Part shown: positions 1-60,149 of the stretch, piece after piece
Layout of the letters: every line of letters starts with the position of its first letter
Numbering within the stretch: position 1 is the stretch's first letter
Assembly: GCF_030408395.1 (NCBI RefSeq)
Contig: NZ_CP046980.1
Span: forward strand, 124,001 to 188,000
DNA: 64,000 nucleotides
Source of the DNA: Corynebacterium aquatimens
GTDB taxonomy: Bacteria > Actinomycetota > Actinomycetes > Mycobacteriales > Mycobacteriaceae
Direction of reading: 5' to 3'
Program-made: the position numbers and the translations under genes
Notes under the pieces: generated by a model
The model's input: only the letters and a program-made list of their open reading frames with translations
The model's database searches: none
What the model was told of the DNA's origin: nothing

Positions 1-1312
1 GCTTTGGCGCCCGCGCCCGGTCCAGATCACCGTTCATGCCCTCCGCCATCGCCGCAACCGTCGTCGCAGCTCCCGCGCCGTGTGTCAGCAGAGCAGCCCC
101 CATCCGAGGGTCCAGCGGCAACCGCGCCAGCCGCTCGCCGAACTCCGTAATCGCACCGTCAACGGCTCCGAGCGCCCTCAGCGTCGCCAGCGTCGCCAGC
201 GCATCCTCCATCGCCTGCGCCGGCGGTTCCGACAGCAACGGCAGATCCGGTGAACCCCACGCCGCCATGGTCAACGCCGCTGAGGTCAGGTCACTCGACG
301 CGATCTCCGGCACAATATCGGCCGCGAAGTGCTGATAATCCTCGCGCGAGTACGCACGCAATACAGTCCCCGGACCCAGGCGTCCCGCGCGTCCCGCGCG
401 CTGATCAGCACTCGTCCGGGCCGCGGACACCGTGACGAGACCGGTCATCCCCCGCGCCGCATCACGCCGCGGCACGCGTGCAAGCCCGGCATCCACAACA
501 CGCCGCACACCCGGCACCGTTATCGACGACTCCGCGATCGACGTCGCCACCACCACCCGCGCGTCGCCATTGAGCGCCGCGTCTTGCTCCGCAGAGCTCA
601 ACCGCCCGTGCAGCGGCACCGCGTCACGACTCGCCCCGCACACCAGCTCCACCTCGCGGACACCGGGAACGAACACCAGGGTGCGATCGTCGCCGTCGGC
701 AAGCGAAGCGACGTGCTCATAGAACTCCCGCGTTCCCTGCGCGCGCCCCGGATGCGGGTGGTAGCTCACCTCCACCGGGTGCGTCACCGCTTCAGTCGAG
801 AGCACCTGCGCCCCCATGTGCGCGGCCAGGGCCTTCGCGTCCAGCGTCGCGGACATCGCCGCCAGATACAGGTCATCGCGCAGGTACGCGACCTCCATCG
901 CCATCGCCAGCACCAGGTCCGTCTCCAGCCCGCGCTCGTGCACCTCATCGATCACGATCGCGCCGACGCCGGTCAGCTCCGGATCCGCGATCAGCCGGTT
1001 CAGCAGCACCCCCGGCGTCACAAACTCCACCAGCGAGCCATCGCGGTGCTCGCCCCGAATCGAGTACCCCACCCTATCGCCCAGCACCGATTCGTCGAGA
1101 AGCGCCAAGCGCCTCGCGGCCGCGCGCACAGCCACTCGCCGCGGCGCCGTCACGAGGGTCACCCCTTCCACACGATTGCTTATCGACGGCGGGAGCAACG
1201 TCGTCTTACCCGTTCCCGGTGGCGCTTCCACAACCAATGGCCCAGTTGGCGGCAGTGAATCGATCACATTCGCCACCGGCAACCCCGCGCCGATCTTTAG
1301 AAGGTCAAACAT
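1..1312 (-). CDS. hrpB: ATP-dependent helicase HrpB, 5' part (runs off left edge)
   Basis: Leftward gene cut by the window edge; about the first 437 residues are present. The start is the ATG at 1312, opening MFDLLKIGAG. A Walker A motif (APPGTGKTT, residues about 30-38) is followed by a DEVH Walker B box near residue 121 (IDEVHERG) and a SAT motif near residue 154, the order expected of DEAH/DEVH superfamily 2 helicases. The HrpB assignment rests on overall resemblance of this N-terminal region; the family is predicted to be an RNA helicase but its cellular role is poorly defined. The gene is divergent from the paralog at 1457, so the 144-bp gap may hold promoters for both. One copy of the repeated word CGTCGATAAGC lies just after the Walker A codons (1178-1188). 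Confidence 0.85.
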   Translation of the reverse strand, partial: MFDLLKIGAGLPVANVIDSLPPTGPLVVEAPPGTGKTTLLPPSISNRVEGVTLVTAPRRVAVRAAARRLALLDESVLGDRVGYSIRGEHRDGSLVEFVTPGVLLNRLIADPELTGVGAIVIDEVHERGLETDLVLAMAMEVAYLRDDLYLAAMSATLDAKALAAHMGAQVLSTEAVTHPVEVSYHPHPGRAQGTREFYEHVASLADGDDRTLVFVPGVREVELVCGASRDAVPLHGRLSSAEQDAALNGDARVVVATSIAESSITVPGVRRVVDAGLARVPRRDAARGMTGLVTVSAARTSADQRAGRAGRLGPGTVLRAYSREDYQHFAADIVPEIASSDLTSAALTMAAWGSPDLPLLSEPPAQAMEDALATLATLRALGAVDGAITEFGERLARLPLDPRMGAALLTHGAGAATTVAAMAEGMNGDLDRARAPK

Positions 1313-1338
1313 CACGATCCAGGGTACAAACCCAACCT

Positions 1339-1395
1339 AGTTAGACTCCCGAAACCCGAAAATGGTTCCCTCGGTTTTGCACACTATAGTGTGCA
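1339..1395 (+). promoter_or_regulatory. Control region copy 1 with 18-bp palindrome
   Basis: The stretch opens with AGTTAGACTCCCGAAACCCG (1339-1358) and ends with the perfect palindrome TGCACACTATAGTGTGCA (1378-1395). Both parts recur in the same order and spacing at 3638-3698, ahead of a paralog of the downstream gene. The palindrome contains TATAGT, a plausible -10 hexamer, so a protein bound there would block the promoter. Seen: repeat and palindrome. Inferred: operator function. Confidence 0.6.
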
Positions 1396-1456
1396 GAATT
1401 TCCTTGGCACCGCGTAGTACTGCCCGTAGCGTTAAAAAGCGAAGGGGGTACAACAC

Positions 1457-3600: not shown

Positions 3601-3611
3601 CGTCGATAAGC
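3601..3611 (+). repeat. Intergenic copy of the 11-bp word CGTCGATAAGC
   Basis: One of 17 exact copies of CGTCGATAAGC or its complement. Starts: 1178, 3601, 5084, 8734, 17413, 20551, 25021, 30053, 30962, 40185, 45933, 49457, 49972, 53908, 57374, 58584, 59654; a 10-of-11 match begins at 6785. This copy is outside any gene, which argues against a protein-coding cause. Confidence 0.75.
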
Positions 3612-4502: not shown

Positions 4503-5333
4503 ATGCAAATCGCAAGTTTCACAATTCACTACACGCCATCAGAAGACGACTACTACTACGACAACGACGAGGTTTGGGCCGCGTACTACGACCTGTATCC
4601 GGATGAGGACGTCGATTTCGAGACATTCATCGAAGATAACCCGGAGTTTGGCACCTACACGGGCGAGAGCTTCCCGGTGGGGATCATCACGTTCGATCCG
4701 AGTGACGGAAAGCGCGTGACGAAGCTTCTTGATCCTTACTCAATAGAAGCGCCGGAGTGGTACAGCGACTACATCGCGTGCGACATCGAGGAGATTATCG
4801 ACGAGTTCTTCAAATCGGACGGACCCGGTCTATTCGATGAGGAGGGCCGGTGCTGCCCCACATGGGATATCGAACTCACCGTCAATCGTCCGCTCAGCGC
4901 GGCAAACTTCGAAGCGGCGCTCGATCGCCTCATGGACACCTTCGTCACTCGCGCGCTGAACCACGAACACCGGCTGTATGAAACGTTCACGCTGGATTTT
5001 CGCACCAACATTAAAAAGGACGAGCATTTGCCCATCGCGGTGTTCGCTTACTGCGCGCCCACGGGTGAGTTTTCCGCCGAATGGCTTATCGACGACAACC
5101 CATTCGCGCCGCCAAAACTCAACCGCGCACAGCGCAAACACATCCAGCGTCAAACAGACGAATTCATGGCAAATATGACTGCCGAGAACATCCAAATTGC
5201 CTTCAACAACATCCGCCGTCCGCAGTTCGGCATATACAGAGTTGATTCGTACCCCGCGCTGTCGAGCGGTCAAGCCGTGGATATGGCACTCGCGGACCTG
5301 AAAGAGCTTTGGAGCACCAGGAAAGCTGCCTAA
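4503..5333 (+). CDS. Hypothetical protein, paralog C with acidic insert
   Basis: A 276-residue paralog of the preceding gene. It differs mainly by an insert at about residues 14-52 that is very rich in D, E and Y. The remaining sequence is collinear with paralog B, ending with RRPQFGI, a short variable stretch, then LSSGQAVDMALADLK and TRKAA. It has its own GAAGGGGG ribosome site and no separate promoter is evident in the 20-bp gap. Function is unknown. The strong B/C similarity indicates a recent tandem duplication, while paralog A is an older branch. A copy of the 11-bp word lies in the coding sequence at 5084. Confidence 0.85.
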   Translation: MQIASFTIHYTPSEDDYYYDNDEVWAAYYDLYPDEDVDFETFIEDNPEFGTYTGESFPVGIITFDPSDGKRVTKLLDPYSIEAPEWYSDYIACDIEEIIDEFFKSDGPGLFDEEGRCCPTWDIELTVNRPLSAANFEAALDRLMDTFVTRALNHEHRLYETFTLDFRTNIKKDEHLPIAVFAYCAPTGEFSAEWLIDDNPFAPPKLNRAQRKHIQRQTDEFMANMTAENIQIAFNNIRRPQFGIYRVDSYPALSSGQAVDMALADLKELWSTRKAA

Positions 5334-6477: not shown

Positions 6478-7760
6478 GAGACATCGCAGAAGAGCTTTCT
6501 TATGCCGGGTACGAGCTCATTGAGGAGATCGGCCACGGTGGGATGGGCACCGTCTATAAGGCGCGTCACCGGGCGCTGAGCCGTGAAGTGGCCGTCAAAG
6601 TCCTGTCGGCGCAGCTCAGCCGCGACCCGGTCGCGATGGCGCGATTTGATAATGAGATGGTGACCATGGCCAGCCTCGATTTCCCGTCGATCGCGCGGGT
6701 GTACGACGGCGCGATTACGGGCTCGGGCGTGCCGTACTTTGTCATGGATCTCATCGAGGGGCCTTCGCTTGCCGACGAGCTTTCTCTTATCGACGAGCCC
6801 TTCGAGCCCGCGCAGGTCGCTGAAATGCTCCGGCCGATTGCGCAGGCGGTTGACCACCTGCATGAAGCGGGCATTGTGCACAGGGATATTAAGCCAGAGA
6901 ACATTCTGTTGTCACCGTCGGGCGCGGTGCTTACGGACTTCGGTATTTCCTATTTGAGCGACATCGCGCAGGAAAGCCGATTGACGATGGAGGGAATCGT
7001 TGTCGGTACTGGAATGTACATGGCGCCTGAATTGTACGAAGCGGGCGTGACTTCCCCAACCCCGGCGACGGATGATTACGCCCTGGCTCTCATTGCCTAC
7101 GAAATGGTGACGGGTAGTTCGTTCTACTCCACCGTGAGCAGGGAGGCGTGGCGTGGGCCACGGCCGTTGGCCCACCTTAAAGAAGTCCCAGTGGGACATG
7201 TTTTTGAGCAAGCGCTAGCCAACGACCCGTCCAAGCGTTTTCCCAACTCGCGTTCCTTTATCAATGCGCTGGAATGCTCCCAGGCGGTAAAGCGTCAGCC
7301 GAAATGGTGGGTCGCTGCCGTGGCGGCAGTAATGGCCGTTGTCGTGGCGGCGGAATTGATCGGCCGTGACGCTGCTACAGGGTGGAATCCGACCGAAGAA
7401 GCCATGGTCAAGATGTACTCACTCATGCTTCCGGAAGATGTCAACGGCACTGGGTGGAGGGACTCGACCTGTACGCGCGGGACTTTGGAAGAAGGGCAAG
7501 AGGCGAAAATTGTCTGCTACGGCACTAAGTTCACTTTCGCGATAGCGGACTATGGGTCGCGGGAAAATTTGGAGAAGTCACTCCACGTTCCGGAAGAAGA
7601 CGACTTAGTTCACAATTTTTGCTATTCCTTCTACGAGGATGCGGATCCGGTCGCAGAGCCGACGTACGTAGCAATCCAAGAAAAGCCGTTGGATTCGTAC
7701 GCGATTTTGGTAACTGGGTTGCTCAGCAGCGATCTCATACTGTCGCTGCCTTTCTGTTAG
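6471..7760 (+). CDS. Membrane serine/threonine protein kinase (Pkn family)
   Basis: A 429-residue eukaryotic-type kinase with a complete active site: glycine loop GHGGMGTVY (residues 21-29), ATP-binding Lys43 in AVKVL, catalytic HRDIKPEN (137-144), DFG at 156-158, and MAPE of the APE motif. About residues 297-317 form one membrane span (WWVAAVAAVMAVVVAAEL). An extracellular part of roughly 115 residues follows, containing four cysteines and no PASTA repeats, so it is not a PknB-type receptor. The start is GTG, overlapping the upstream lipoprotein stop. It phosphorylates Ser/Thr on unknown substrates; the FHA protein encoded next is a natural candidate reader. The extracellular domain and the lipoprotein suggest surface sensing, which is inference. 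Confidence 0.88.
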   Translation: MLRDIAEELSYAGYELIEEIGHGGMGTVYKARHRALSREVAVKVLSAQLSRDPVAMARFDNEMVTMASLDFPSIARVYDGAITGSGVPYFVMDLIEGPSLADELSLIDEPFEPAQVAEMLRPIAQAVDHLHEAGIVHRDIKPENILLSPSGAVLTDFGISYLSDIAQESRLTMEGIVVGTGMYMAPELYEAGVTSPTPATDDYALALIAYEMVTGSSFYSTVSREAWRGPRPLAHLKEVPVGHVFEQALANDPSKRFPNSRSFINALECSQAVKRQPKWWVAAVAAVMAVVVAAELIGRDAATGWNPTEEAMVKMYSLMLPEDVNGTGWRDSTCTRGTLEEGQEAKIVCYGTKFTFAIADYGSRENLEKSLHVPEEDDLVHNFCYSFYEDADPVAEPTYVAIQEKPLDSYAILVTGLLSSDLILSLPFC

Positions 7761-8548: not shown

Positions 8549-9262
8549 ATGGTGGAAAAGAAAGTAGCAGTAGTCACCGGCGGATCAGCAGGAATCGGGG
8601 AGGCGGCTGCCCGTGCGCTCGCCTCTGATGGGTGGTTGGTGTACGTGGCGGCTCGTCGGAAAGAGCGCTGCGATGCCGTTGCCGCCGAGATCGGCGGGAT
8701 TGGCGTTGAGTTGGATGTTACGGACCAGGGGTCCGTCGATAAGCTAGCTGCGCAGCTTGACCGCGTGGACCTGCTGGTCAACAACGCGGGCGGGGCGAAG
8801 GGGCTTGATTTGCTGCGCGAGGCGAATTTGGACGATTGGGAGTGGATGTACCAGACCAACGTCGTGGGCACCGTAAGGATGATGAAAGCGCTGTACCCGC
8901 AGCTCGTGGCGGCAGAAGGTCTGGTCATTAACGTCGGGTCCGTCGCCGGCTGGGACGCGTACGTCGGGGGCAGCGGCTACAACGCCGCGAAGTTCGGTCT
9001 ACGCGCGCTCACGCGTGCTTTTCGACGAGAGGAAGTGGACCAGCCGATCCGCATTACCGAAATTGACCCGGGCCGCGTGAAAACGGACTTTGCGCTGAAC
9101 CGTTTTGAAGGTGATAAGCAGCGTGCCGCCGCCGTGTACGAGGGGAAACTGAACCTCACGGCCGAGGACATCGCTGAAGCGATCCGCTGGGTGGCGTCGT
9201 TGCCTGCACACATGAACATCGACACGATGAGCATTATGCCGAGGGATCAGGCGGAGCGCTAA
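8549..9262 (+). CDS. Short-chain dehydrogenase/reductase
   Basis: A 237-residue classical SDR. The NAD(P) site is TGGSAGIG (residues 9-16), followed by NNAG, the catalytic serine in NVGSVAG, and the YNAAK catalytic pair (YxxxK). The late ITEIDPGRVKTDF segment is the usual substrate-loop boundary. It resembles YdfG/3-hydroxy acid dehydrogenase-type members, but the substrate cannot be told from sequence. I start at the ATG at 8549 (MVEKKVAVVTGG); upstream in-frame sequence belongs to the FHA gene in another frame. The 11-bp word occurs at 8734. Confidence 0.88.
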   Translation: MVEKKVAVVTGGSAGIGEAAARALASDGWLVYVAARRKERCDAVAAEIGGIGVELDVTDQGSVDKLAAQLDRVDLLVNNAGGAKGLDLLREANLDDWEWMYQTNVVGTVRMMKALYPQLVAAEGLVINVGSVAGWDAYVGGSGYNAAKFGLRALTRAFRREEVDQPIRITEIDPGRVKTDFALNRFEGDKQRAAAVYEGKLNLTAEDIAEAIRWVASLPAHMNIDTMSIMPRDQAER

Positions 9263-9271: not shown

Positions 9272-9913
9272 GTGACCTTTTCGAGTTTCTGTGCATTACT
9301 GGGCATCTGGCTAGTCGGCATCGTGAGCCCCGGGCCCGATGTGCTGCAGATAACCAGGCAGGGGGCGAAGTCCCGGGCGGCGGGCGTGGCGTGCGCGCTG
9401 GGCATCATGGTTGGCAACACGTTTTGGATTGCGGCGTCGCTTCTGGGGCTCAGCGCCTTAATCCAGGCGTTCCCGCAGATCCTGGCCGTGCTGCAGCTCG
9501 TTGGTGGCTCGTACCTGCTGTACATGGGTATCGGCGCGGTTCGTGCGGGGTGCGCGGCCCGCGGGAAGAGCGGGCTGCGGGTGGAGGCGGCTGGGGGGTC
9601 GTCGTCAAGCAAAGCGTTTTGGGTGGGCGTGGCCACCAACCTCTCGAACCCCAAGGCCGTGCTGTTTTTTGGGGCGGTGTTCGCGCAGTTCATCAAACCC
9701 GGGATGGGTTGGGAATGGATGGTGGCAATTCTGGTCACCATGGTGATCACCGGCGTGGCATGGTTCGTCGGCTTTGCTCTGCTCATCGACGTGATTGCCG
9801 GGTTCTTGGATCGGTGGGGTTACCTCGTGGACATTGTCGCGGGTGTCATCTTTGCGGTGCTAGCGGTGTGGATGATTTTTGAGGGTGCGACGGCGCTTCT
9901 AAGTGGGGTATAA
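9272..9913 (+). CDS. LysE/RhtB-family amino acid exporter
   Basis: A 213-residue inner-membrane protein with about six hydrophobic spans. The first contains IVSPGPDVLQ, the signature of the LysE/RhtB superfamily, and the fourth region has NLSNPKAVLFF, also typical. Members export amino acids or similar small metabolites; the substrate here is unknown. GTG start nine bases after the SDR stop, so the two may be co-transcribed. Confidence 0.88.
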   Translation: MTFSSFCALLGIWLVGIVSPGPDVLQITRQGAKSRAAGVACALGIMVGNTFWIAASLLGLSALIQAFPQILAVLQLVGGSYLLYMGIGAVRAGCAARGKSGLRVEAAGGSSSSKAFWVGVATNLSNPKAVLFFGAVFAQFIKPGMGWEWMVAILVTMVITGVAWFVGFALLIDVIAGFLDRWGYLVDIVAGVIFAVLAVWMIFEGATALLSGV

Positions 9914-10743: not shown

Positions 10744-11019
10744 ATGGAGATTGAAATTTCAGGCAGCAGCATCAAGCTGGGGCAATTCCTCAAGCTTGCC
10801 AACATCGTGGAGACCGGAGGGCACGCGAAAGAGGTGATCGCCGACGGGGAGGTCACCGTCAATGGCGAGGTAGTCACTGCGCGTGGGCACATGCTTCACG
10901 ACGGCGATGTGGTGAGCGTGAGCGGAATCAAAGCGGTTGTTGCCACTGGTAGTGGTGATTATTTTGATGAGCGCACTGCCGATGATGATTTTGACCCTGA
11001 AAAGTGGAGGAACCTTTAA
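10744..11019 (+). CDS. S4-domain RNA-binding protein (YbcJ/YaaA type)
   Basis: A 91-residue protein that is nearly all one S4 domain: IKLGQFLKLANIVETGGHAKEVIADGEVTVNGE gives the helix-loop-strand landmarks of S4. Small stand-alone S4 proteins bind structured RNA, often ribosomal, with poorly defined roles. I use the ATG at 10744 because AAGGTGG lies five to six bases upstream; a GTG at 10735 is less likely. The next gene starts directly after its stop codon. Confidence 0.8.
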   Translation: MEIEISGSSIKLGQFLKLANIVETGGHAKEVIADGEVTVNGEVVTARGHMLHDGDVVSVSGIKAVVATGSGDYFDERTADDDFDPEKWRNL

Positions 11020-11802: not shown

Positions 11803-12730
11803 ACAGAAAATCGGCGACGTCGCGGATGCGGCGACGGGATTCCTCGGGGGTGGCGATGGTGTGGGTGGAGTGGTAGTCCACCACCCGCACGCTGGCGGGA
11901 AGATCGGGGCGGGCGACCCTGTCGTCGTAAAGCGCGATCTGCACGAGCGTGCGCGGCCATGACTCCGCCGGCGGGATTTCTGCGCCGGCGCGGATGTCGT
12001 CTGGAAGGCGCCCGAACTCGTTGAGCGACGGGTAGGTGAGTACGAGGGCGTCCACGTCGTTGGAAAGGAGCGTGGCCAGCGTTCCGCCCGAGCTTGCGCC
12101 CCAGATGGTGACGGACTGAGGGTTGTGGCTGCGCACAACGTCGAGCGCCCGACGGACGTGGGCAACCATGTCCGCGACCGTGTGCTCGGGGGCAAGCGGG
12201 TAATCCAGGTCGACGATGGTGGTGCCGGACAGCTGCGCCGCGGCGGCGACCTCCGGCTGCCAGCGCATCTGGCGCGCGATGCCCGCACCGCGCCACCAGC
12301 CGCCCGGGTGCAGCGAAATGGCCCATCGGCCGGTGGGCTCGGACGGGGTGAACAGCGTGGCTGCGAGATCGGGCAGTTCCTCCACCGTGATCCCGTCGGA
12401 GTAGGCCACGCCAGGCATCGTGTGGTCTAGAGCCGAGCCGAGCATCAGCATCGCCGCGTGGGTGATGCGGTCAGGCAGGTGAGCCAAGTAGAGATCTGCT
12501 TCCGCACGATCGCCGGCGCCGCCGCGCCACGGTGCGGTGACGTCTGGGCGCGGGTAAGTCGCGTCCATGTAGGACACGAGCTGATTCAGCTGGTCAGCGG
12601 GGGAAAGGGTGCGCTTTACGCCCCCGACCGTGAACTCGGCTTCCGCCTCACCGATAGGCAGCGGCTCGCTCGGCTCAGCAGGTTCGGGGATGTGCCGCAT
12701 CCGTGCCTGTGCGTCCTCAAAGCGGCTCAC
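11795..12730 (-). CDS. Alpha/beta hydrolase
   Basis: A 311-residue protein with the hormone-sensitive-lipase-like layout: an oxyanion HGG-type loop written LHPGGWWRG (about residue 140) and the nucleophile elbow GASSGG (about 210). A late D and the H of VVDYHSTHT are candidates for the rest of the triad. It is probably a cytoplasmic esterase; the substrate is unknown. The GTG start overlaps the stop of the M13 peptidase gene (GTGA), placing it last in the long leftward cell-wall operon. Confidence 0.8.
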   Translation of the reverse strand: MSRFEDAQARMRHIPEPAEPSEPLPIGEAEAEFTVGGVKRTLSPADQLNQLVSYMDATYPRPDVTAPWRGGAGDRAEADLYLAHLPDRITHAAMLMLGSALDHTMPGVAYSDGITVEELPDLAATLFTPSEPTGRWAISLHPGGWWRGAGIARQMRWQPEVAAAAQLSGTTIVDLDYPLAPEHTVADMVAHVRRALDVVRSHNPQSVTIWGASSGGTLATLLSNDVDALVLTYPSLNEFGRLPDDIRAGAEIPPAESWPRTLVQIALYDDRVARPDLPASVRVVDYHSTHTIATPEESRRRIRDVADFLST

Positions 12731-39804: not shown

Positions 39805-40281
39805 ATGAACCAGGAAGGCTACGCAATCACCGTCACCCAGCGCGAGGGACGGTGGGAAGTGCGCGAGTTCGCCGACAACTTCACGCGCGTCAGCCACGCG
39901 ATTTCAGCCGTGCGCAACTTGCGTAGTGAGTCCGCGGCGTTCGCCATCGTCAACGTCGAGGAGGAGTACCTCGCCATCGTTCGCCCCGGTCCCCGCGGCA
40001 CCCGCGCGCTAATTTCGGACGCGACGATGGCGGTCGACGATGACTTCGCGGCGGATATTTGCGAAGAAGCAGGCATCGAGATCCCCGACATCGACCCGGC
40101 CGACCTGGACGACGTTGACGCGTACGCCGACGGGGACTTCGACATCCTCGCAGACCTCGGCCTGAGTGAGGGCACGTTAGCCGTGCTTATCGACGATGGG
40201 GAGGCGGACCCATCAGAGATCATCGAGCGGATCGCTGATGAGCTCGGTTTTCTTGACGAATTGCTCGATGCAGTTGGATAA
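39805..40281 (+). CDS. TadA-associated protein
   Basis: A 158-residue, strongly acidic protein (DDVDAYADGDFDILADLGLSEG ...) of the type annotated as tRNA adenosine deaminase-associated protein in actinobacteria, always next to tadA. Function unknown. It is divergent from tyrA and its end overlaps the tadA start by 14 bp. Contains the 11-bp word at 40185. Confidence 0.85.
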   Translation: MNQEGYAITVTQREGRWEVREFADNFTRVSHAISAVRNLRSESAAFAIVNVEEEYLAIVRPGPRGTRALISDATMAVDDDFAADICEEAGIEIPDIDPADLDDVDAYADGDFDILADLGLSEGTLAVLIDDGEADPSEIIERIADELGFLDELLDAVG

Positions 40282-49428: not shown

Positions 49429-49791
49429 GTGCCCCAACGAAAGCTTTTCGCACTCTGCTTATCGACGATTGCCCTCACCCCAATCGTCCTTTCTGGCTGC
49501 ACGTTCTACTACGACCGGCCGACCGTGACCAGCACCATGACGACGACGGCGACCTTGTCCCCAGGCGAGGTCCCGCCGTCGTCATCGTCATTGGAGCCGA
49601 CTGCTGGGTCCAGCACTGTGCCGAGCAGTACCGTGCCGAGCAGCTCGTCCCTCAGCTCGACACTTCTTCCCGAACCCGAAAAAGTGGTCGCACGCTGCGG
49701 TAACCCGGGCAAAGAAGAGCGTGGAACGACCTACTACGTCGACGGCACGAAGGGTTTGACTCAGCTCTGCTACGACCTCATGCCTGAGTAA
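49429..49791 (+). CDS. Putative lipoprotein
   Basis: A 120-residue protein with a leader and lipobox (LTPIVLSGC, Cys24). A Ser/Thr/Pro-rich linker (residues about 35-80) precedes a small domain with two cysteines (VVARCGNPGKEERGTTYYVDGTKGL). GTG start. It follows the surface-protein gene after 26 bp and ends at the terminator at 49797. Function unknown. Contains the 11-bp word at 49457. Confidence 0.75.
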   Translation: MPQRKLFALCLSTIALTPIVLSGCTFYYDRPTVTSTMTTTATLSPGEVPPSSSSLEPTAGSSTVPSSTVPSSSSLSSTLLPEPEKVVARCGNPGKEERGTTYYVDGTKGLTQLCYDLMPE

Positions 49792-49971: not shown

Positions 49972-49982
49972 CGTCGATAAGC
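49972..49982 (+). repeat. Intergenic copy of the 11-bp word CGTCGATAAGC
   Basis: An exact copy between tRNA-Ser(GGA) and the SRP RNA gene, 515 bp from the copy at 49457. All starts are listed in the entry at 3601. Confidence 0.75.
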
Positions 49983-51895: not shown

Positions 51896-53161
51896 ATGTC
51901 TTTGCTTGATCTTGATACTTCCGCGCGCGAAGAACTCGCTGCGCAGGTCCAGGCCGAATACCAACAGCTGAAGGACCGTAACCTGAACTTAGACCTGACC
52001 CGTGGAAAGCCGTCTTCGGAGCAACTCGACATCTGCTCCGGCCTCCTTTCACTCCCCGGGGATGATCACACGGACGCCACAGGGGCAGATGTGCGCAACT
52101 ACGGGAACCTGAAAGGTATCCAGGACATCCGTGAACTTTGGTCGGACGTCATCGGCATCCCGGTGGAGAACATTTACGCGGGCGATTCATCGTCGCTGAA
52201 CATCATGTTCGACCTCGTGTCGTGGTCATGCTTGTTCGGTAACAACGATTCTCCACGCCCGTGGTCACAAGAAGAAACCATTAAGTGGATCTGCCCGGTT
52301 CCGGGATATGACCGGCACTTCTCCATCACGGAGAAGCTCGGTTTTGAGATGATCCAGGTTCCCATGCTTGAAGACGGCCCAGATGTTGATGCCGTCGCTG
52401 AACTCGCGAAGGACCCAGCGGTCAAGGGCATGTGGGTTGTTCCGATGTTCTCCAACCCAACTGGATACACGGTCACTGAAGACGTTGTTCGTCGTCTGTG
52501 TGAGATGGAGACTGCGGCTCCAGATTTCCGCATTGTGTGGGACAACGCTTATGCAATCCACACGCTGACTGACGAGTTCCCGCCGATCATTGACGTTTTA
52601 AGCGCGGCAGAAAAAGCGGGCAATCCGAACCGCTTCTGGGTCATGAGCTCGACGTCGAAGATTACGCAGGCAGGTTCGGGCGTGGCGTTTTTTGCGTCGT
52701 CAAGCGAAAATCTCGCGTGGTACGCAGACATCGCTGGGATCCGCGGAATCGGTCCGAACAAGGTGAACCAGCTCGCGCACGCGAAGTTCTTCGGTGACGC
52801 TGAGGGTGTGCGTGACGTGATGCGCAAGCATGCGGAATCGATGGGGCCGAAGTTTGCTGCCGTCGACGAGATTCTGCAGAACCGACTCGGTGAGTATGAG
52901 GTGGCGCGGTGGACCAAGCCGACCGGCGGTTACTTCATTTCCCTCGATGTTGTGGACGGCACCGCGACGCGAGTGTGGGAGCTGGCGAAGGACGCAGGAA
53001 TCACGTTGACGAAGGCTGGTTCCTCGTACCCGCTGGGCCAGGATCCGAACAACCGGAACATTCGGCTTGCACCGTCGCTCCCGCCGCTCGAGGAAGTGCG
53101 TACCGCGATGGATGGCGTGGCCACCTGCGTGCTTCTGGCTGCGCTTGAAAAACTCGGGTAG
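51896..53161 (+). CDS. aspT: Aspartate aminotransferase
   Basis: A 421-residue PLP enzyme of the Ic subgroup described for Corynebacterium AspT. SSTSKITQAG holds the Schiff-base Lys255, and MFSNPTGYTVT and DNAYA are the other cofactor contacts. It moves an amino group between aspartate and 2-oxoglutarate, feeding lysine synthesis that begins at lysC at the right end of the window. ATG start after GAGGATGAAACGCC. It ends 6 bp before dnaX. Confidence 0.9.
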   Translation: MSLLDLDTSAREELAAQVQAEYQQLKDRNLNLDLTRGKPSSEQLDICSGLLSLPGDDHTDATGADVRNYGNLKGIQDIRELWSDVIGIPVENIYAGDSSSLNIMFDLVSWSCLFGNNDSPRPWSQEETIKWICPVPGYDRHFSITEKLGFEMIQVPMLEDGPDVDAVAELAKDPAVKGMWVVPMFSNPTGYTVTEDVVRRLCEMETAAPDFRIVWDNAYAIHTLTDEFPPIIDVLSAAEKAGNPNRFWVMSSTSKITQAGSGVAFFASSSENLAWYADIAGIRGIGPNKVNQLAHAKFFGDAEGVRDVMRKHAESMGPKFAAVDEILQNRLGEYEVARWTKPTGGYFISLDVVDGTATRVWELAKDAGITLTKAGSSYPLGQDPNNRNIRLAPSLPPLEEVRTAMDGVATCVLLAALEKLG

Positions 53162-53167: not shown

Positions 53168-54850
53168 GTGGCGCTATATCGCAAGTACCGTCCCGCGTCT
53201 TTCGCGGAGATGATCGGCCAGGAGCAAGTGACCAAGCCGCTGTGCGCAGCCTTGGACAATGGCCGGATCAATCATGCTTACTTGTTTTCGGGGCCGAGGG
53301 GAACGGGTAAGACGTCGTCGGCACGCATTTTGGCGCGCTCTTTGAACTGCGTCGAGGGGCCTACGTCGACCCCGTGCGGCGTGTGTTCCTCCTGCGTGTC
53401 GCTGGCGCCCGGTGGCCCCGGCAACCTTGACGTGAAGGAGCTAGACGCGGCGTCGAACCGCGGTGTCGACGACATGCGATCGCTGCGTGAGAGTGCCTTG
53501 TTCGCCCCGGCGGAATCGCGTTATCGCGTGTTCATCGTGGATGAGGCCCACATGATCACGCGCGAGGGATCAAACGCGCTGCTCAAGATCGTGGAGGAGC
53601 CGCCGGAACATCTCATCTTTATTTTTGCGACGACGGAGCCGGAAAAGATCATTGGAACGATCCGCTCACGCACGCACCACTATCCGTTCCGTCTGCTTAC
53701 TCCGCCTGCGATGCGCGAGTTGATTCACCGTACCGTGGTTGCGGAGGGCGTCCATGTGGATGAGGACGTGTATCCGCTGGTGATTCGGGCTGGCGGTGGC
53801 TCGCCGCGCGATACTCTCTCGATCCTCGACCAGCTCTTGGCCGGCGCGGGGGAGCAAGGCCTGACGTACGACGTCGCCTTGCTGTTGCTTGGGGTTACGG
53901 ACTCTTCGCTTATCGACGCGACGGTGAATGCCCTGGCCGCACACGACGCCGCCGGACTTTTCTCCGTGGTCGATGGAGTGATTGAGGCGGGCCATGAGCC
54001 GCGCCGGTTTGTGACGGATCTTTTAGACCGCCTCCGTGATTTGACTGTGCTGCAGTTCGTTCCTGACGCGATTGAGCAGGGGCTTGTCGACGCTCCTACG
54101 GATCGCGGCGAAACACTGAAGCAGCAGGCCGCGCTGTTCACTGGGGCGCAGCTTGCGGATCTCGCCACCGAAGTCAATGACCGCGTGAGCGATCTGAAAG
54201 GCGCCACCTCTCCTCGTTTGTTGCTCGAGATCATGATGGCGCACTTGGTGGGTAGTGGCTCGAATCCCACTGCGGTCCCGGCTGTGCAGCAGAGTCCGCC
54301 GCAACCAGCGCCACCACAACCAGCGCCGCCGCAACCAGCACCGCCGCGACCTGAGCCACCCAGAGATTCCCTTGCCCAGATTCGGGAGTCCTGGGAAGAG
54401 ATCCGCGGGAAGGTGCAGGGGCGCAATAAGGTCGCCGGGATCCTCCTTGCCGAAGCGCAGCCGGTGGAGCTGGATGGCCAAACGCTGGTTATCGGGCACA
54501 ACACGGGTGCGTTGGCGCAGCGTCTCAACCTCGATGTGAATCGAAGCGCCATTGAGAGTGCGTTAAGGGACGTGGTTGGCACGGCAATCTCTGCACGCTT
54601 CGTCGTAGGCACTGGGTCAAGCACTGGGCAAAGCACGGGGTCCAGCACGGAACCCGAACCAGAGCCCGAACCCGAACCAGAACCAGAGCCCGAACCCGAA
54701 CCAGAACCAGAACCAGAACCGTATTCCAGGGAGGCCGAGGAAGAGGACATGGTGAATCAGTCCCAGGAAGCTGGTGAGCTGGACCACCGTAACCCGACTG
54801 AGATGGCGAGGGACTTGCTGGCTGATGAGTTGGGGGCCCGGCCGGTCTGA
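53168..54850 (+). CDS. dnaX: DNA polymerase III gamma/tau subunit
   Basis: A 560-residue clamp-loader subunit. Walker A is SGPRGTGKTS (about residues 41-50). Zinc cysteines C61, C70, C73 and C76 lie in CVEGPTSTPCGVCSSC, and Walker B DEAH (FIVDEAHMIT) follows. The C-terminal part contains a PQPAPP run and a long Glu-Pro tract (residues about 495-518) of unknown role. GTG start with no clear ribosome site but only 6 bp after aspT, so probably coupled. Contains an 11-bp word copy at 53908. Confidence 0.94.
   Translation: MALYRKYRPASFAEMIGQEQVTKPLCAALDNGRINHAYLFSGPRGTGKTSSARILARSLNCVEGPTSTPCGVCSSCVSLAPGGPGNLDVKELDAASNRGVDDMRSLRESALFAPAESRYRVFIVDEAHMITREGSNALLKIVEEPPEHLIFIFATTEPEKIIGTIRSRTHHYPFRLLTPPAMRELIHRTVVAEGVHVDEDVYPLVIRAGGGSPRDTLSILDQLLAGAGEQGLTYDVALLLLGVTDSSLIDATVNALAAHDAAGLFSVVDGVIEAGHEPRRFVTDLLDRLRDLTVLQFVPDAIEQGLVDAPTDRGETLKQQAALFTGAQLADLATEVNDRVSDLKGATSPRLLLEIMMAHLVGSGSNPTAVPAVQQSPPQPAPPQPAPPQPAPPRPEPPRDSLAQIRESWEEIRGKVQGRNKVAGILLAEAQPVELDGQTLVIGHNTGALAQRLNLDVNRSAIESALRDVVGTAISARFVVGTGSSTGQSTGSSTEPEPEPEPEPEPEPEPEPEPEPEPYSREAEEEDMVNQSQEAGELDHRNPTEMARDLLADELGARPV
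54649..54720 (+). repeat. Hexanucleotide tandem repeat coding for Glu-Pro
   Basis: About 12 imperfect GAACCN or GAGCCC units in the 3' part of dnaX, reading (Glu-Pro)12. The frame is unaffected by unit gain or loss, so length polymorphism is expected. Confidence 0.9.
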
Positions 54851-55889: not shown

Positions 55890-56596
55890 CCGCGGAGTCG
55901 TTCGCTGCGGAGTCGGTCGACTTCGGGGAGGGTGAGCGGCTCAAGATCTGCCAGCGACACGTCGAGGGCGCGGGCGATCAGCAGGTCCGCTAGCTGCGGG
56001 TTGCGTGCTAGCGCCGGGCCGTGCATGTATGTTGCGATCACGCTGCCTTGGACGACGCCCTCGCCTGAGTGCTCCACCACGTTGTTGCCGGTCCCGCGGG
56101 TGACAGTGCCTAAAGGTTGCGCGCCGGGGCCGAGGATGGTTGCTCCCAAGTGGTTTTCAAACCCGGTGAGTGGTTCGGTGAGCTCGGGCAGGGTGGGGCG
56201 TGAGGTCACTTCGCCGATCGCGCGGGACGGCATAGCGGCGGTTGTCGCGTCGATGAGTCCCACGCCGTCGACGATTTCGCCATGAGCGTGGAAGGTCTTG
56301 CTTAGTACCTGCAGGCCAGCGCACACTGCGAAAATTGGGCGGTTGTTGGCGGCGGCGCGGGAGAGGCCACCGTCGTTAAGCAAATGCTCTGTGGCGAGCA
56401 CTTGCGCGAAGTCTTCGCCACCGCCCATGCAGTAGAGGTCAAGGTTGTCGGGCACCGCGTCGCCCAGCGCAAGCTTGACGACGGTCGCCTCAATCCCGCG
56501 CAACGCACACCGCTGGCGCAGGACCAGTGCGTTTCCGTTGTCGCCGTACGTGCCAAGCACGTCAGGGAGCACGAGGCCGATGCGAATTTTAGGCAT
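55886..56596 (-). CDS. gatD: Lipid II isoglutaminyl synthase, glutaminase subunit GatD
   Basis: A 236-residue class-I glutamine amidotransferase of the CobB/CobQ-like group. The nucleophile is Cys92 (FAVCAGLQ) and the second residue is His192 ([10 protein letters not shown]). With MurT it amidates the D-glutamate of lipid II, needed for peptidoglycan cross-linking. The ATG at 56596 overlaps the murT stop by 8 bases (ATGCCTAA), so the two are translated together. Confidence 0.9.
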
Positions 56597-57836
56597 TGAT
56601 TTCCCTTTCTAGAGCACGCTTGAGGTCCCGGAAGGACGTGTAATTGGCCAAGACTTCGACACGACCGGGCGGGCAGGCGCGGATGGCTTTCACTGGGTCG
56701 TGGATGAGTTCGTGGTCGATGCCCGCGTAGAGCAGGCGCACGGCGAGGTCCGTGCCGCGCTCACCTGCGGCTTTGACGTGGGTGCCTTCGAAATCCTCGA
56801 AGCTGACGTCCCACAGCCAAGACAGGTCTTCACCGTCAGCGACCTGGCCATTGACGGAAATGACGAGGCCATCTGCGCAGCGATCCACCATGGACAGCGC
56901 CTCTTGCCAGCCCGCGGGATTCTTGGCCAGAAGCAGGTGGATCTCGTGCTCACCGAGGGTCATCGTGGAGTAGCGCCCGGCGACGTTGTCCACGGACTCA
57001 GCCGCGCGAACGGCAGCGTGTACGTCAATGTCGAAGGCGGTAACGGCCGCGGCGATGGCCTGGGCAGCGTTGCCCCGGTTAGCGTTGCCCGGCAGAGTGA
57101 GGTTCAGCTCAACGTCACCGTCGGGCGTGTGGAGGCCATCCGCGTCCACGCGCCACTGCGGGGTGGGGCGGCGGAACTCCCGGCCGTCGGCAAGCGGCTT
57201 TGTCGCGTACCAGTCCTCCCCGTCACGAACGATGAAACCAGGTCCGCGGGGGTTCGTGATGGAATCTTCGACCCACCCGGCGCCGGCGGATACCCACACG
57301 ACGTTGGGCGCGTCGAAGGCGATGGAGGACACGAGCACGTCATCGCAGTTGGCAATCACGGTCATCGCAGGATGCTTATCGACGGCCGCCCGCAACGCCT
57401 TCTCGATCTTGTTGATCTCGCCGACACGGTCGAGTTGGTCGCGGGAGAGGTTGAGCAGGACTAGGGCGGTCGGGGCGAGCCGGTCCGCTGCCGCCGGGAC
57501 GTGGAGCTCGTCGACTTCCAGGACGATGTGAGAGGCGTCTTCATTGGCGAGCAACGCAGAAATAATGCCAGCGTCCATGTTGTCACCGCCGTCGTTGGTG
57601 GCAACCGTGTGCGCGCTGCGCAGAGCGCTAGCCAGCATGCGCGTAGTGGTGGACTTGCCGTTTGTGCCGGTGACCAGCACGGTGGGCCGGCCGCGGCCGA
57701 GTTGGGCAAGGATCGTTGGGTCGATAGCGTTAGCTACCAAGCCACCGATCATTCCGCCGGCCCCGCGGCCAGTGGCGCGGGAGGCAAACGTGGCCATCTT
57801 CGCGGCCGTTACTGCTAGGCGTGTGCGCAATCGCAT
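56589..57836 (-). CDS. murT: Lipid II isoglutaminyl synthase, MurT ligase subunit
   Basis: A 415-residue Mur-ligase-like protein: TGTNGKST (residues 56-63) is the ATP loop, followed by EVDELHVP and the GNANRGNAAQA segment of the central domain. The inserted zinc ribbon found in Staphylococcus MurT, which needs four cysteines, is not evident here: the region NPRGPGFIVRDGEDWYATKP carries none of them. I begin at the ATG at 57836 (MRLRTRLAV); the upstream frame is not coding. The gene follows the exonuclease-like gene by 10 bp. An 11-bp word copy lies at 57374. Confidence 0.87.
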   Translation of the reverse strand: MRLRTRLAVTAAKMATFASRATGRGAGGMIGGLVANAIDPTILAQLGRGRPTVLVTGTNGKSTTTRMLASALRSAHTVATNDGGDNMDAGIISALLANEDASHIVLEVDELHVPAAADRLAPTALVLLNLSRDQLDRVGEINKIEKALRAAVDKHPAMTVIANCDDVLVSSIAFDAPNVVWVSAGAGWVEDSITNPRGPGFIVRDGEDWYATKPLADGREFRRPTPQWRVDADGLHTPDGDVELNLTLPGNANRGNAAQAIAAAVTAFDIDVHAAVRAAESVDNVAGRYSTMTLGEHEIHLLLAKNPAGWQEALSMVDRCADGLVISVNGQVADGEDLSWLWDVSFEDFEGTHVKAAGERGTDLAVRLLYAGIDHELIHDPVKAIRACPPGRVEVLANYTSFRDLKRALEREINA

Positions 57837-57846
57837 AAGGGGAAGT

Positions 57847-58839
57847 TTAATGCGCTGGGTCTGAAACAGCCGCAACGGCGGCGGTGAACTGGCTATCCGT
57901 GAGTAACGGAATCTCCTTGCGCTGCGCGTGCATGGCCTTACCGCGCAGGGCGGCTGGGTCACTCGCGTTCGTCACAACCAGGGAGGTTTCGCGGGTGACC
58001 TTTTCTGAATACGTAAGTTGTGCGTCGAGCGCCGCTTGGATGAGGTCGTCGTGGCAGGTTTGCACATCGTCGGTGATCACGACTTCCATGCCCGGCTTCA
58101 GGCCCGTCACAGGGGAGTAGGGGCCCGGGTTGTCTACCTCAGGTGAAGCCTTATGGGCATCGACGCGAATTCGCGCGCGCTGGAGACCAAATCGGTCCGG
58201 TGCAAGCTCTTCCGGGCTGCGGGTTGCTAGCTCCCCGCTTGCCGCTAAGCAGCGGTAGAGCTCGATCAATGTGTGCGTCCGCGACCGTGAGGTCTCTTCT
58301 TCGGCGCGCGCGGCGCGTTCGGCGCTCGCGGTAGGAGGCTCAACCGTAAGGCCAGAATCGCGGGCCACGGCCTCGAGTCGCTGGTCAACCGGGATCACGC
58401 CTTGGAGTCGCGCGGACGCTAGCGTATCGACGATCACCTTCGGCGTCGGCACATGCCCCACCCGCTGGCGACGACGGCCGTTGCGTTTCCGGTTCGCGCG
58501 CGCCGCAGCGTTCATTGCCCGCCGAGCCTCAGCGACGATAAAACCCCAGCTCGTGGGGGCGTCGTGGAGGATGAGTGTCCGACCGTCGATAAGCTTGTCC
58601 AGCTTCTTTAAGCTGCGGGAGAAACGCGGGGCTTGGCAGAAATCTGACCGTGGCACACCGTGGTTGTGCAGAGGACCCGGGTCGGTGACGGGGTTGAATA
58701 CTGCGTGGAAATCCTCGCCAACATTGCCCTCAGCGTCGAACGCGACCGCGTCGAGCGTGAGCAGATGCCCTGAGCTGGGATGGATCCCCGTGGCCTGGAG
58801 GTAGACGGCGACGAAAGGATAATCGATGGCGCTTACCAT
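57847..58839 (-). CDS. DnaQ-like exonuclease homolog, catalytic residues lost
   Basis: A 330-residue protein that aligns with the actinobacterial DnaQ-type exonuclease encoded next to murT. In true DEDD exonucleases the first motif reads DxExT; here it reads VYLQATG (Tyr13, Gln15). The second motif, HDAPTSWGF, and the third, HTLIELYRC, also lack the acidic residues. A C-terminal BRCT-like region (VITDDVQTCHDDLIQAALDAQLTYSE) remains. It is probably a non-catalytic relative. The ATG overlaps the stop of the upstream gene and murT follows. Confidence 0.72.
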   Translation of the reverse strand: MVSAIDYPFVAVYLQATGIHPSSGHLLTLDAVAFDAEGNVGEDFHAVFNPVTDPGPLHNHGVPRSDFCQAPRFSRSLKKLDKLIDGRTLILHDAPTSWGFIVAEARRAMNAAARANRKRNGRRRQRVGHVPTPKVIVDTLASARLQGVIPVDQRLEAVARDSGLTVEPPTASAERAARAEEETSRSRTHTLIELYRCLAASGELATRSPEELAPDRFGLQRARIRVDAHKASPEVDNPGPYSPVTGLKPGMEVVITDDVQTCHDDLIQAALDAQLTYSEKVTRETSLVVTNASDPAALRGKAMHAQRKEIPLLTDSQFTAAVAAVSDPAH

Positions 58840-60149
58840 CCCAACTGGAACAGGGGTTGGCCAGGCGGAATGTTCGATTCCACGCGCACACCGCCGACGT
58901 CATTGACATACGGGCGCGGGTTCGCTTGTGCGGGTGCGGCTGGTGCCGGCGCAGGAGCCGGGGCTGGCGCTGGCGCGGGTGTGGGAGCTGGGGCCGGAGC
59001 GGGCGCAGGCGGTTGTTGCCGCGGCACCGGGGCGGGGGCCTGCTGCACCGGCGCCGGCTGGTTTTGCTGGACCTGTTGGTTCTGTGGCTGGTTCTGTGGC
59101 TGGTTCTGGTTCTGCCGCGGCGCGGGATCCTTCTTTAGCTCCTCTTTTGGCTTGTCTTTGGGCTCTTCTTTTGCCTCGTCTTTTGGTTTCTCTTCAGACG
59201 TTTTTGGCTCCGACTTCGTGGGTGAGGTGGACCCGGTGAAGGTATCGGATACCTGGTTAGAGCTCACCGTGATGTCCTGGGAGTTCACAGCCATCAAGCC
59301 CACGCCGCCGAGTGCGAGCGCGACCGTGAGGCACGCCGCGACCTGGAAGCTGGTGTATCGCTTCTTTCTCTGTGGTGCCTCCGGCTCATCATCATCTTCG
59401 TCGGCTGCCAATGCTGCGGCTTCCGCGACGCTGTCAGCGGCGAACTGGGGTTCAGGAGCCAGGACGGGGATCGGAGAAGTGATCGGGTGTTCTTCCTTGG
59501 CCACTGGGTTGGCGGACACCGTCAGGGACGGAGCTCCGCCGTTCGGTGCGTGGTAACCGTGCGCCATTGGAATCACGCCGCGCTTCTCTAAGCGGCGCAA
59601 CGTCGGGCTCAGTTCGGCGCCGGTGGCTAGGTCGAACTCGCCCACCTGCTCGCCGTCGATAAGCGCGATGACATCTCCAGCCGCGTCGAAGCCCACCTCG
59701 ACGAGGAAATGCTTGCGCTCAGTAGACGTGGCCAACTTTGCGGTGGGGAGGTACGACACCTGGCGCGGGGCCCCGGTGGGGAGAAGCACCCAGGGCTCCT
59801 CGGGGGGTGTGTTTGCTGGCGTACACAAACCCGGGCGGGGGAGGCGCAGGTGCAGATCCAGGTCGTAATCCGCGACCTCGAGCCGCGCTGTGACCTGCGG
59901 GGACAGGCCAGCCTGGGCGATCGTTGCTAGCTCCGCGTACTCGCGGCTATCGGACGCGGAGAGCGTGCCGAGGGTGTGGCCTTCGAGCACAACCGCGAAG
60001 GGGCTGTCGTGGCCTTCGGGAAACTCGATGGAGACGGTGTAGTCACCTGCGGGCAGTTCGCGCAGCAGGTCCTCATTGAGATCATTAACGGGGATAGTGC
60101 GAATAGCGCCAAGGCCAAGGTCTGGCACCTTGTAACTGGTCGACGTCAA
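58833..60149 (-). CDS. Single-span membrane protein with Pro/Ala/Gln-rich tail
   Basis: A 438-residue protein. The N-terminal 200 residues are soluble, and one segment (IEFPEGHDSPFAVVLEGHTL) faintly resembles a HIRAN-like fold; that is pattern recall. One membrane span (residues about 280-298, AACLTVALALGGVGLMAV) follows a basic anchor (RKKRYTS), then a charged and Lys/Glu/Pro-rich region, a Gln/Asn stretch, and (AP)n repeats, so the C-terminus is probably outside the membrane. The TTG at 60149 is used because GGAGGGG sits just upstream; a GTG at 60167 is the longer option. Unknown function. Confidence 0.65.
   Translation of the reverse strand: MTSTSYKVPDLGLGAIRTIPVNDLNEDLLRELPAGDYTVSIEFPEGHDSPFAVVLEGHTLGTLSASDSREYAELATIAQAGLSPQVTARLEVADYDLDLHLRLPRPGLCTPANTPPEEPWVLLPTGAPRQVSYLPTAKLATSTERKHFLVEVGFDAAGDVIALIDGEQVGEFDLATGAELSPTLRRLEKRGVIPMAHGYHAPNGGAPSLTVSANPVAKEEHPITSPIPVLAPEPQFAADSVAEAAALAADEDDDEPEAPQRKKRYTSFQVAACLTVALALGGVGLMAVNSQDITVSSNQVSDTFTGSTSPTKSEPKTSEEKPKDEAKEEPKDKPKEELKKDPAPRQNQNQPQNQPQNQQVQQNQPAPVQQAPAPVPRQQPPAPAPAPAPTPAPAPAPAPAPAPAAPAQANPRPYVNDVGGVRVESNIPPGQPLFQLGW

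Follow-up and report, generated by a model that had tools for sequence, protein, structure and literature searches.

The 64-kb window, which is the whole stretch of Corynebacterium aquatimens DNA analysed here, holds 44 copies of the gapped motif CGTCG-NN-AAGC, whose most frequent form is the 11-bp full word CGTCGATAAGC, and an island of insertion sequences. The gap dinucleotide is nearly unconstrained. Around the copies T is preferred at -1, G near -14 and TGC within 24 nt downstream. The features are:

694..704, plus strand, motif copy CGTCGGCAAGC
1093..1103, plus strand, motif copy CGTCGAGAAGC (one-mismatch set)
1178..1188, minus strand, motif copy, full word CGTCGATAAGC
3601..3611, plus strand, motif copy, full word
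5084..5094, minus strand, motif copy, full word
6767..6777, minus strand, motif copy CGTCGGCAAGC
8734..8744, plus strand, motif copy, full word
9017..9027, minus strand, motif copy CGTCGAAAAGC (one-mismatch set)
9600..9610, plus strand, motif copy CGTCGTCAAGC
10893..10903, minus strand, motif copy CGTCGTGAAGC
11923..11933, plus strand, motif copy CGTCGTAAAGC
13005..13015, plus strand, motif copy CGTCGTCAAGC
13728..13738, minus strand, motif copy CGTCGACAAGC (one-mismatch set)
14133..14143, minus strand, motif copy CGTCGTCAAGC
17413..17423, plus strand, motif copy, full word
17725..17735, plus strand, motif copy CGTCGTTAAGC (one-mismatch set)
19701..19711, plus strand, motif copy CGTCGCGAAGC
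20551..20561, minus strand, motif copy, full word
25021..25031, minus strand, motif copy, full word
25455..25465, plus strand, motif copy CGTCGAGAAGC (one-mismatch set)
30043..30053, minus strand, motif copy, full word
30962..30972, plus strand, motif copy, full word
31957..31967, minus strand, motif copy CGTCGAGAAGC (one-mismatch set)
33443..38615, no strand, IS21-type (istA/istB) and IS3-type insertion sequences, motif-free
40185..40195, minus strand, motif copy, full word
40415..40425, plus strand, motif copy CGTCGTCAAGC
42105..42115, minus strand, motif copy CGTCGCTAAGC (one-mismatch set)
42322..42332, plus strand, motif copy CGTCGCTAAGC (one-mismatch set)
43423..43433, minus strand, motif copy CGTCGAAAAGC (one-mismatch set)
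45933..45943, minus strand, motif copy, full word
47740..47750, plus strand, motif copy CGTCGCCAAGC
48190..48200, plus strand, motif copy CGTCGAAAAGC (one-mismatch set)
49386..49396, plus strand, motif copy CGTCGCGAAGC
49457..49467, minus strand, motif copy, full word
49972..49982, plus strand, motif copy, full word
52695..52705, plus strand, motif copy CGTCGTCAAGC
53908..53918, minus strand, motif copy, full word
54082..54092, minus strand, motif copy CGTCGACAAGC (one-mismatch set)
56371..56381, plus strand, motif copy CGTCGTTAAGC (one-mismatch set)
56473..56483, minus strand, motif copy CGTCGTCAAGC
57185..57195, plus strand, motif copy CGTCGGCAAGC
57374..57384, minus strand, motif copy, full word
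58584..58594, plus strand, motif copy, full word
59654..59664, plus strand, motif copy, full word
61712..61722, minus strand, motif copy CGTCGGCAAGC

A first-pass annotation had reported 17 exact 11-mers, divided 7 to 10 between the strands. All 17 and their division were confirmed; dinucleotide shuffles predict 0.02 copies, and none of 100 shuffles reached 17. One of its starts, 30053, marks where the copy spanning 30043-30053 ends, and the single 10-of-11 match that it mentioned gives way to 19 one-mismatch copies, making 36 matches in total against 1.15 expected. Two copies had been called intergenic, whereas our in-house codon-usage gene caller places four of the 17 (1178, 3601, 49457 and 49972) outside genes or at gene edges. 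The flanks, described as unrelated, do differ among copies but share the preferences given above. The word is a genuine signal for which an 11-mer is too narrow a description, since the gap dinucleotide is nearly free. The mobile island lacks it, as had been noticed: no site falls inside the insertion sequences, and no gapped copy occurs from 31,967 to 40,185, a stretch that covers them.

The annotation proposed a chromosome-wide DNA signal and suggested a whole-genome count, along with checks on strand bias, spacing, mobile DNA and related species. The count bears the proposal out. The 2.52 Mb genome contains 1,447 copies of CGTCG-NN-AAGC (719/728 by strand), one per 1.7 kb, compared with 48 for the reversed control; the full 11-mer occurs 515 times, far from expectation, and its reversed control not once. 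In an 864 kb sample the top 11-mer was seen 171 times, with 8.4 expected under an order-5 model. That the word arises by chance, as a coding artefact or from a single repeated gene family is refuted. One codon register does dominate, with 331 of 420 coding sites at offset 2, but across the sampled chromosome the sites fall in every one of the six frames, on either strand and also in non-coding DNA, as had been claimed for frames and strands in the window; the excess over the reversed control and the differing flanks also argue against these readings. Density varies with GC content, from 0.285 sites per kb in the sixth of the sampled chromosome that is poorest in GC to 0.764 in the richest, and the low value may be partly compositional.

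Strand and spacing tests covered 34% of the genome, with the terminus placed at 1.30 Mb by the sign change in GC skew and the origin assumed to be the contig start. Replication-strand bias was absent: the leading strand has 228 of the 477 sampled sites and, for the full word alone, 80 of 171. Across 105 genomes carrying the motif, orientations total 55,453 forward and 55,650 reverse. In E. coli, Chi sites show a strong strand bias relative to replication. The word resembles Chi in being short, dispersed and mostly genic, and its density and its scarcity on plasmids (below) would loosely fit a Chi-like recombination hotspot or regulator for an enzyme of the RecBCD, AddAB or AdnAB type; however, the even orientation speaks against such a role, which would also leave the limit to one genus and the dialect switch described below unexpected, and we consider it very unlikely.

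Site spacing is close to random (variance/mean 0.84 per 20 kb), with no concentration in any one region of the 34% sampled. DUS, the uptake words of Neisseriaceae, are often intergenic, as inverted pairs in terminators, which we regard as a common trait and not a requirement. The intergenic preference, common for DUS and for the USS of Pasteurellaceae, is not seen for CGTCG-NN-AAGC, since 57 of the 477 sites (11.9%) are non-coding or at gene edges and non-coding DNA makes up 12.8%. One passage of PMC3630211 speaks of no preference between coding and non-coding positions, and a passage of PMC5217627 states that the USS of H. influenzae often form terminators.

Putative plasmids beyond the window are also depleted. 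Such contigs from 15 genomes that bear the motif carry 8 sites against 131 expected (reversed control 5), and a C. occultum plasmid has 1 site in 100 kb against 23 expected, all expectations being based on rounded genome sizes. This scarcity and the near-even chromosomal spread are what a chromosome-organising site would show, one recognised within the cell by a protein of nucleoid, segregation or condensin-related type and required by the chromosome though not by plasmids. Such a site is unlikely in our view. The sampled third of the genome shows neither the replication-strand bias or regional concentration that it might have, nor the clustering or polarity of parS, matS or KOPS-type sites, and about a fifth of the Corynebacterium genomes sampled do without the word.

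The motif, here called motif I, is present in 105 of 151 sampled Corynebacterium genomes (∼ 70%). Ten carry a second dialect, GGCATCG-NN-AAGC (II), one of which (G143) has both; five are weak and 32 have neither. The two dialects share a core, occur in mostly different genomes and are in 12- to 40-fold excess. No comparable excess was found in 185 genomes from 30 other genera of the family or in 245 other genomes of the class. Samples of motif-free genomes were scanned for every variant that alters one or two of the nine fixed letters, and no variant approached the 12- to 40-fold level; 60 kb samples from seven genomes that are motif-free or weak (G010, G014, G015, G084, G128, G133 and G147) gave no convincing alternative word. 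As a separate observation, CGTCG-NN-GAGC and its kin are 3- to 8-fold over-represented in some genomes of high GC content (18 seen and 3.6 expected in G133; 13 and 2.6 in C. otitidis), which we tentatively put down to codon context.

Sites are maintained between relatives of the same dialect. Summing both directions of each pair and using shuffled gapped words as the control, 18/18 sites are kept at 94.5% DNA identity (shuffled 28/47) and 18/25 at 80% (18/79). At greater distance maintenance becomes weak, with 4/14 kept at 73% (6/62) and 2/7 at 70% (0/53); two pairs of 5 kb pieces gave 0/2 (2/14) and 2/2 (2/16). Between dialects, G006 and strain ACRPO were compared at 79% DNA identity: of nine type-II sites in G006, eight are type I in ACRPO. 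Place and gap letters are unchanged in these eight, and the sole difference is core position 2. Three of the eight are type II in the outgroup G143, indicating that A became G, a change that creates a CpG and is thus not CpG decay. The tree behind this polarity was built from a single locus, using three of its proteins, with SH-aLRT as the sole measure of support. Dialect I was assigned on it to C. alimapuense, with 3 copies in 21 kb, and to a MAG with 4 in 15 kb; G143, a carrier of both dialects, was entered as II.

The switch bears on two of the alternatives. For a chromosome-organising site, a change in specificity would demand many parallel point changes, each selected at its own site, and the 8/9 one-letter rewriting is easier to obtain by biased uptake with recombination. 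The word might instead reflect DNA modification or mutation bias, as a methylation or restriction-avoidance mark or a mutational hotspot. The G of a CpG occupies core position 2, where a change from G to A would be typical decay; yet the polarised switch runs from A to G, and the word is missing from these cells' putative plasmids, on which both processes act as well. Restriction is expected to yield avoidance of a word rather than its enrichment. HIP1 of cyanobacteria, likewise massively repeated and short, is a palindrome, whereas CGTCGNNAAGC is not, as it differs from its own reverse complement. This explanation is largely refuted, and we rate it as highly improbable.

Among an uptake sequence, a recombination hotspot, a nucleoid or segregation site and a protein-binding site, the four options offered by the first-pass annotation, the evidence favours the first: the lack of strand bias, the near absence from putative plasmids, the dialects within the genus and the one-letter switch all point to it. 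From these sequence patterns we consider CGTCG-NN-AAGC likely to be a DNA uptake sequence of Corynebacterium, probably served by the encoded Tad pilus with ComEA and ComEC. A surface DNA receptor, probably a part of the Tad/Flp pilus, would prefer free double-stranded DNA bearing the word; the pilus and ComEA would draw the DNA across the envelope, ComEC would bring it in and homologous recombination would swap it into the chromosome. Word-bearing fragments would enter more often, so that the word would spread and be kept at hundreds of unrelated places. Such a molecular drive, made up of biased uptake and recombination, may be the force that maintains the sites. Plasmids and insertion sequences, which take no part in such recombination with the chromosome, would remain without the word. 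Were the receptor's preference to shift by one base, the same drive would rewrite existing sites and give rise to dialects.

To our knowledge, Neisseriaceae and Pasteurellaceae, both Gram-negative, are the only families with accepted uptake words. It seems reasonably probable that a system of this kind arose independently outside these two families, in mycolate-bearing actinobacteria, read by a Tad-type pilus in place of a type IVa one and with one lineage rewritten, at almost all sites examined, by the same single-base change as its receptor shifted. Judged by title and the start of the abstract, the matches listed include no report of CGTCG-NN-AAGC or of a Corynebacterium uptake sequence, nor, among the same matches, a paper demonstrating natural transformation in Corynebacterium. 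In the text available, PMC5217627 mentions Corynebacterium solely for CRISPR and PMC12236230 names Neisseria alone for uptake words.

The word resembles the DUS of Neisseriaceae, which passages of PMC3630211 describe as a short word in thousands of copies with clade-wise dialects one or a few bases apart; two dialects share one genome in Simonsiella muelleri (PMC3630211), as they do in G143. It differs in sequence, in its free two-base gap and in its actinobacterial host; the candidate machinery identified here is a Tad locus and not a type IVa pilus with ComP, and the uptake function is a proposed one. USS of Pasteurellaceae also have a short core with weaker flanking positions, on both strands, and a flanking-tract structure; their sequence is unrelated to CGTCG-NN-AAGC and their hosts belong to another phylum. 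About 1,300 copies are given for H. influenzae in a passage of PMC5217627.

Nothing signals a bacterial "self" filter on sex by transformation more clearly than an uptake word. If our reading is correct, a genus that includes commensals, pathogens and industrial strains undergoes, or once underwent, frequent natural transformation, and there would be a second independent case in which to study how uptake words originate, spread and change dialect. Such words might then accompany any outer permeability barrier, here the mycolate membrane. The close pair of different dialect, with its one-letter differences, makes dialect change directly testable, and word-dependence is open to a practical test in which the word is added to donor DNA.

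The closest parallel for the machinery is Micrococcus luteus, an actinobacterium that is not a mycolate bacterium. It has tad and comEA/comEC genes (passages of PMC4322843 and PMC6370729) and needs the Tad (Flp) genes for transformation (PMC4322843); the terms 'uptake sequence' and 'sequence-specific' are absent from the available text of PMC4322843. The host of the word encodes comEA, comEC and a tad locus; ComEA, ComEC and TadA were assigned by family match and further tad genes by order. comEC is present in 151/151 Corynebacterium genomes and TadA lies above the cut-off in 142/151 (148 at E 0.001), motif-free genomes included in both cases, so that presence of the machinery does not track the motif and fails as a discriminator. 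Four motif-I genomes without a good TadA (G075, G092, G113 and G119) are all drafts or incomplete, and in three more (G021, G101 and G112) it is partial or split. ComEC open frames of at least 640 codons occur in 27/31 motif-free and 13/103 motif-I genomes; since length follows deep lineages, we do not claim a longer ComEC as the cause of motif absence. In alignments viewed in part, Flp, TadE and TadE2 (the last small pilin-like protein) showed no clean dialect-tracking residue. Of the three, TadE2 has the lowest conservation in the close different-dialect pair (71%), but it holds that rank in a same-dialect pair too (63%). A scan of 1,416 columns in seven Tad proteins, with ComEA and ComEC outside it, revealed no receptor. 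The column with the strongest link to dialect is in TadC, a presumed membrane component and not a pilin, and is Asp in 15/15 type-I and Ala in 8/9 type-II sequences (p 1.2e-5, uncorrected for columns or kinship).

The first-pass annotation had listed the starts of 17 exact copies of the 11-mer CGTCGATAAGC (the word) in the window. All 17 are present (30053, listed as a start, is the last base of the copy at 30043-30053), and the assertion that chance predicts well under one was borne out by shuffles (0.02 expected). The single 10-of-11 match reported there was an undercount, as a search allowing one mismatch adds 19 copies (1.15 expected in all). The over-representation proved chromosome-wide, as had been supposed: the complete genome (one contig, 2,524,396 bases, with the window at 124,001-188,000) holds 257 + 258 copies of the word and none of its mirror word. 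In an 864 kb sample, made up of the window and 40 stretches of 20 kb spread around the chromosome, no 11-mer exceeds an order-5 model more strongly than the word (171 copies against 8.4 expected). Parts of it lead the 8-, 9- and 10-mers; the 12- and 13-mers are headed by another repeat, not by the word.

A table of one-base changes from the same sample showed positions 1-5, 8, 10 and 11 to be nearly invariant, while position 9 accepts C (28 seen, 1.2 expected). The middle two bases are nearly free (AT 171, TC 45, TT 41, AG 38, GC 32; 0.6 to 2.5 expected each), and the motif is therefore CGTCG-NN-AAGC (motif I), with 477 copies in the sample and 1,447 genome-wide (719/728 by strand; 48 for the motif written backwards, the reversed control). 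At the 57 sample sites that lie between genes or on a gene boundary, T stands at -1 in 36 and G at -14 in 35, the gap letters are A in 36 and T in 41, and TGC follows within 24 nt downstream in 43 (19 expected), suggestive of weaker flank and gap preferences. CGTCG-NN-ACGC is also over-represented in the sample (102 seen, 28 expected) and is possibly a weaker form of the motif in this genome.

We scored a genome for motif I when the count was no less than threefold that of the reversed control, and for a second dialect differing at core position 2, GGCATCG-NN-AAGC (motif II), at 100 copies or more. The 151 genomes of the genus divide into 104 with motif I, 9 with motif II, one with both (G143; 352 and 578 copies), 5 weak and 32 with neither. 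Motif-I genomes carry 115 to 1,891 copies (median 1,081.5, n = 104), and strand totals over the 105 genomes with motif I are 55,453 and 55,650. Carriers of motif I include C. haemomassiliense, C. urinipleomorphum, C. bouchesdurhonense, C. lemuris and C. pilosum; motif II occurs in C. phoceense and in the strains KPL1814 and J010B-136. No more than one copy of either motif turned up in the 21 kb read from each of five species (C. mastitidis, C. otitidis, C. meridianum, C. pygosceleis and C. phocae); C. alimapuense, with 3 copies, is ambiguous. The exact word stays at background (0-7 copies) in the 185 sampled genomes that represent 30 other genera of the family. Across the rest of the sampled class (245 rows judged by eye) CRTCG-NN-AAGC reaches no more than about 2.6-fold over its control, against 20 times in C. 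aquatimens (1,473 versus 73). CGTCG-NN-GAGC is 5-fold over-represented in samples of the motif-free genome G133 (18 versus 3.6) and in a stretch of C. otitidis (13 versus 2.6), reflecting either codon context or a third dialect.

In five of six same-dialect pairs of relatives, sites were retained more often than shuffled gapped words (sites, with control in brackets: 18/25 (18/79), 18/18 (28/47), 4/14 (6/62), 2/7 (0/53) and 2/2 (2/16)), the exception being one short pair with 0/2 sites and 2/14 control words intact. On a tree of three tad-locus proteins (37 taxa: 34 Corynebacterium and three outgroups) the motif is missing from the deepest Corynebacterium lineages, motif I occupies a crown clade that includes C. 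aquatimens, and motif II a neighbouring clade. Motif state requires seven changes (shuffled mean 16.9; none of 200 shuffles that low). C. phocae and G014, both without a clear motif, fall inside the motif-II clade; C. glucuronolyticum and a MAG, scored motif I, lie outside the crown clade without a resolved position.

Strain ACRPO (motif I) has G006 and KPL1814 as neighbours within the motif-II clade, and there the dialect has switched by one letter. Across an 18 kb region common to G006 and ACRPO (79% DNA identity), eight of nine G006 type-II sites are type I at the same place, with identical gap letters and core position 2 alone altered; the remaining one is type II in each genome. KPL1814 gave 9/10 in the same comparison, and shuffled gapped words were intact in 6/55 (G006) and 14/63 (KPL1814). 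G143, which itself carries both dialects and branches outside the G006/ACRPO pair (SH-aLRT 98 and 100), has CATCG at three of the eight switched sites; the change thus ran from A to G. Since 4 of 12 ACRPO sites have no G006 counterpart, new sites also arise. In two shorter pieces of G004 (motif I), 3/8 type-I sites lie on G006 type-II sites, two of them at places known from ACRPO. Several other motif-I genomes hold 20 to 62 type-II copies, which may be relics of a similar switch; most hold fewer than 20.

Leading-strand sites account for 228 of 477 motif copies and 80 of 171 full-word copies in the sample, so replication polarity is absent. Intergenic enrichment was looked for among the 477 sites and was not found: 420 are genic, the other 57 being intergenic or on a gene boundary (11.9%; non-coding DNA makes up 12.8%). 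Every reading frame is used, yet 331 of the 420 genic sites share one codon register, encoding V-x-K or L-x-D. Counts per 20 kb scatter slightly less than Poisson (variance/mean 0.84), spacings are approximately exponential, and low-GC parts of the sampled chromosome are poorer in sites (0.285/kb in the lowest sixth by GC, 0.764/kb in the highest).

Putative plasmids, taken by size as 20 small additional contigs from 15 motif-I genomes (at most 20 kb of each read; one of 1.9 kb appears masked), contain 8 motif-I sites (reversed control 5) against 131 predicted from chromosomal density. One of these contigs, from G139 (very probably C. occultum), is the C. occultum plasmid pCOCCU (108,872 bases; a 200-base piece was located in it), which has one site in 100 kb where 23 are expected. 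C. kefirresidentii and C. tuberculostearicum plasmids have one in 77 kb, a count made on the plasmid sequences. The 33.1-38.7 kb mobile island of the window, an IS21-type and an IS3-type element, was said to lack the word; it has none of the window's 44 motif sites. With three or four expected there, this is a weak sign of motif exclusion. Two tRNA genes lie just before the island (window coordinates):

31551-31626, tRNA-Arg(acg)
33068-33143, tRNA-Arg(acg)

With the main genomic signs present, intergenic enrichment excepted, CGTCG-NN-AAGC appears from its genomic pattern to work like a DNA uptake sequence, and probably is one. Among the papers listed by searches of an open-access library there was no prior report of the word, which does not prove that none exists.

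C. aquatimens encodes a ComEA, whose helix-hairpin-helix scores above the cut-off and whose SLBB scores below it, a short ComEC (469 codons in our own gene calling, Competence domain at 186-452) and a TadA that, among named records, matches Corynebacterium best. Neighbours of tadA, named from order and look, are a CpaE-like protein, TadB, TadC, a short Flp-type pilin and two TadE-like proteins, an order that agrees with the tad order of Micrococcus luteus (PMC4322843). Since almost every genome of the genus has comEA, comEC and tad loci, their presence alone cannot account for which species bear the motif; lineages without it may lack competence or may not discriminate. Comparison of Tad proteins by dialect gave no nameable receptor for the word. 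ComEC frames of at least 640 codons occur in 27 of 31 motif-free and 13 of 103 motif-I genomes; 17 residues follow the Competence domain in C. aquatimens and 149 in G147. In G147 and two other deep motif-free genomes (G054, G010) the tad locus has a single TadB-like gene (362-378 codons) and lacks a separate match to TadC, unlike the motif-bearing clade. TadA appears split in two or partial in three motif-I genomes (G101, G112 and G021), which may reflect decaying competence or assembly errors.

Other repeats were seen. AACGGCTCGATCG, a second over-represented word of C. aquatimens (26 copies in 864 kb), forms short arrays at about 21-base spacing and facing pairs at several loci, and is a dispersed repeat family separate from the motif. 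Example loci (genome coordinates) are:

near 79,281-79,446, AACGGCTCGATCG (stretch L032)
near 316,509, AACGGCTCGATCG (stretch L035)

A word around AACCCGACTGAGCCGAC has about 30-45 copies in 60 kb of G004 and is probably an array or dispersed repeat. The palindrome TTCACGTGAA, which resembles the core of parS, the ParB site, is found at 3 places in 60 kb of G036 (a count of 6 when both strands are read), where 0.03 are expected.
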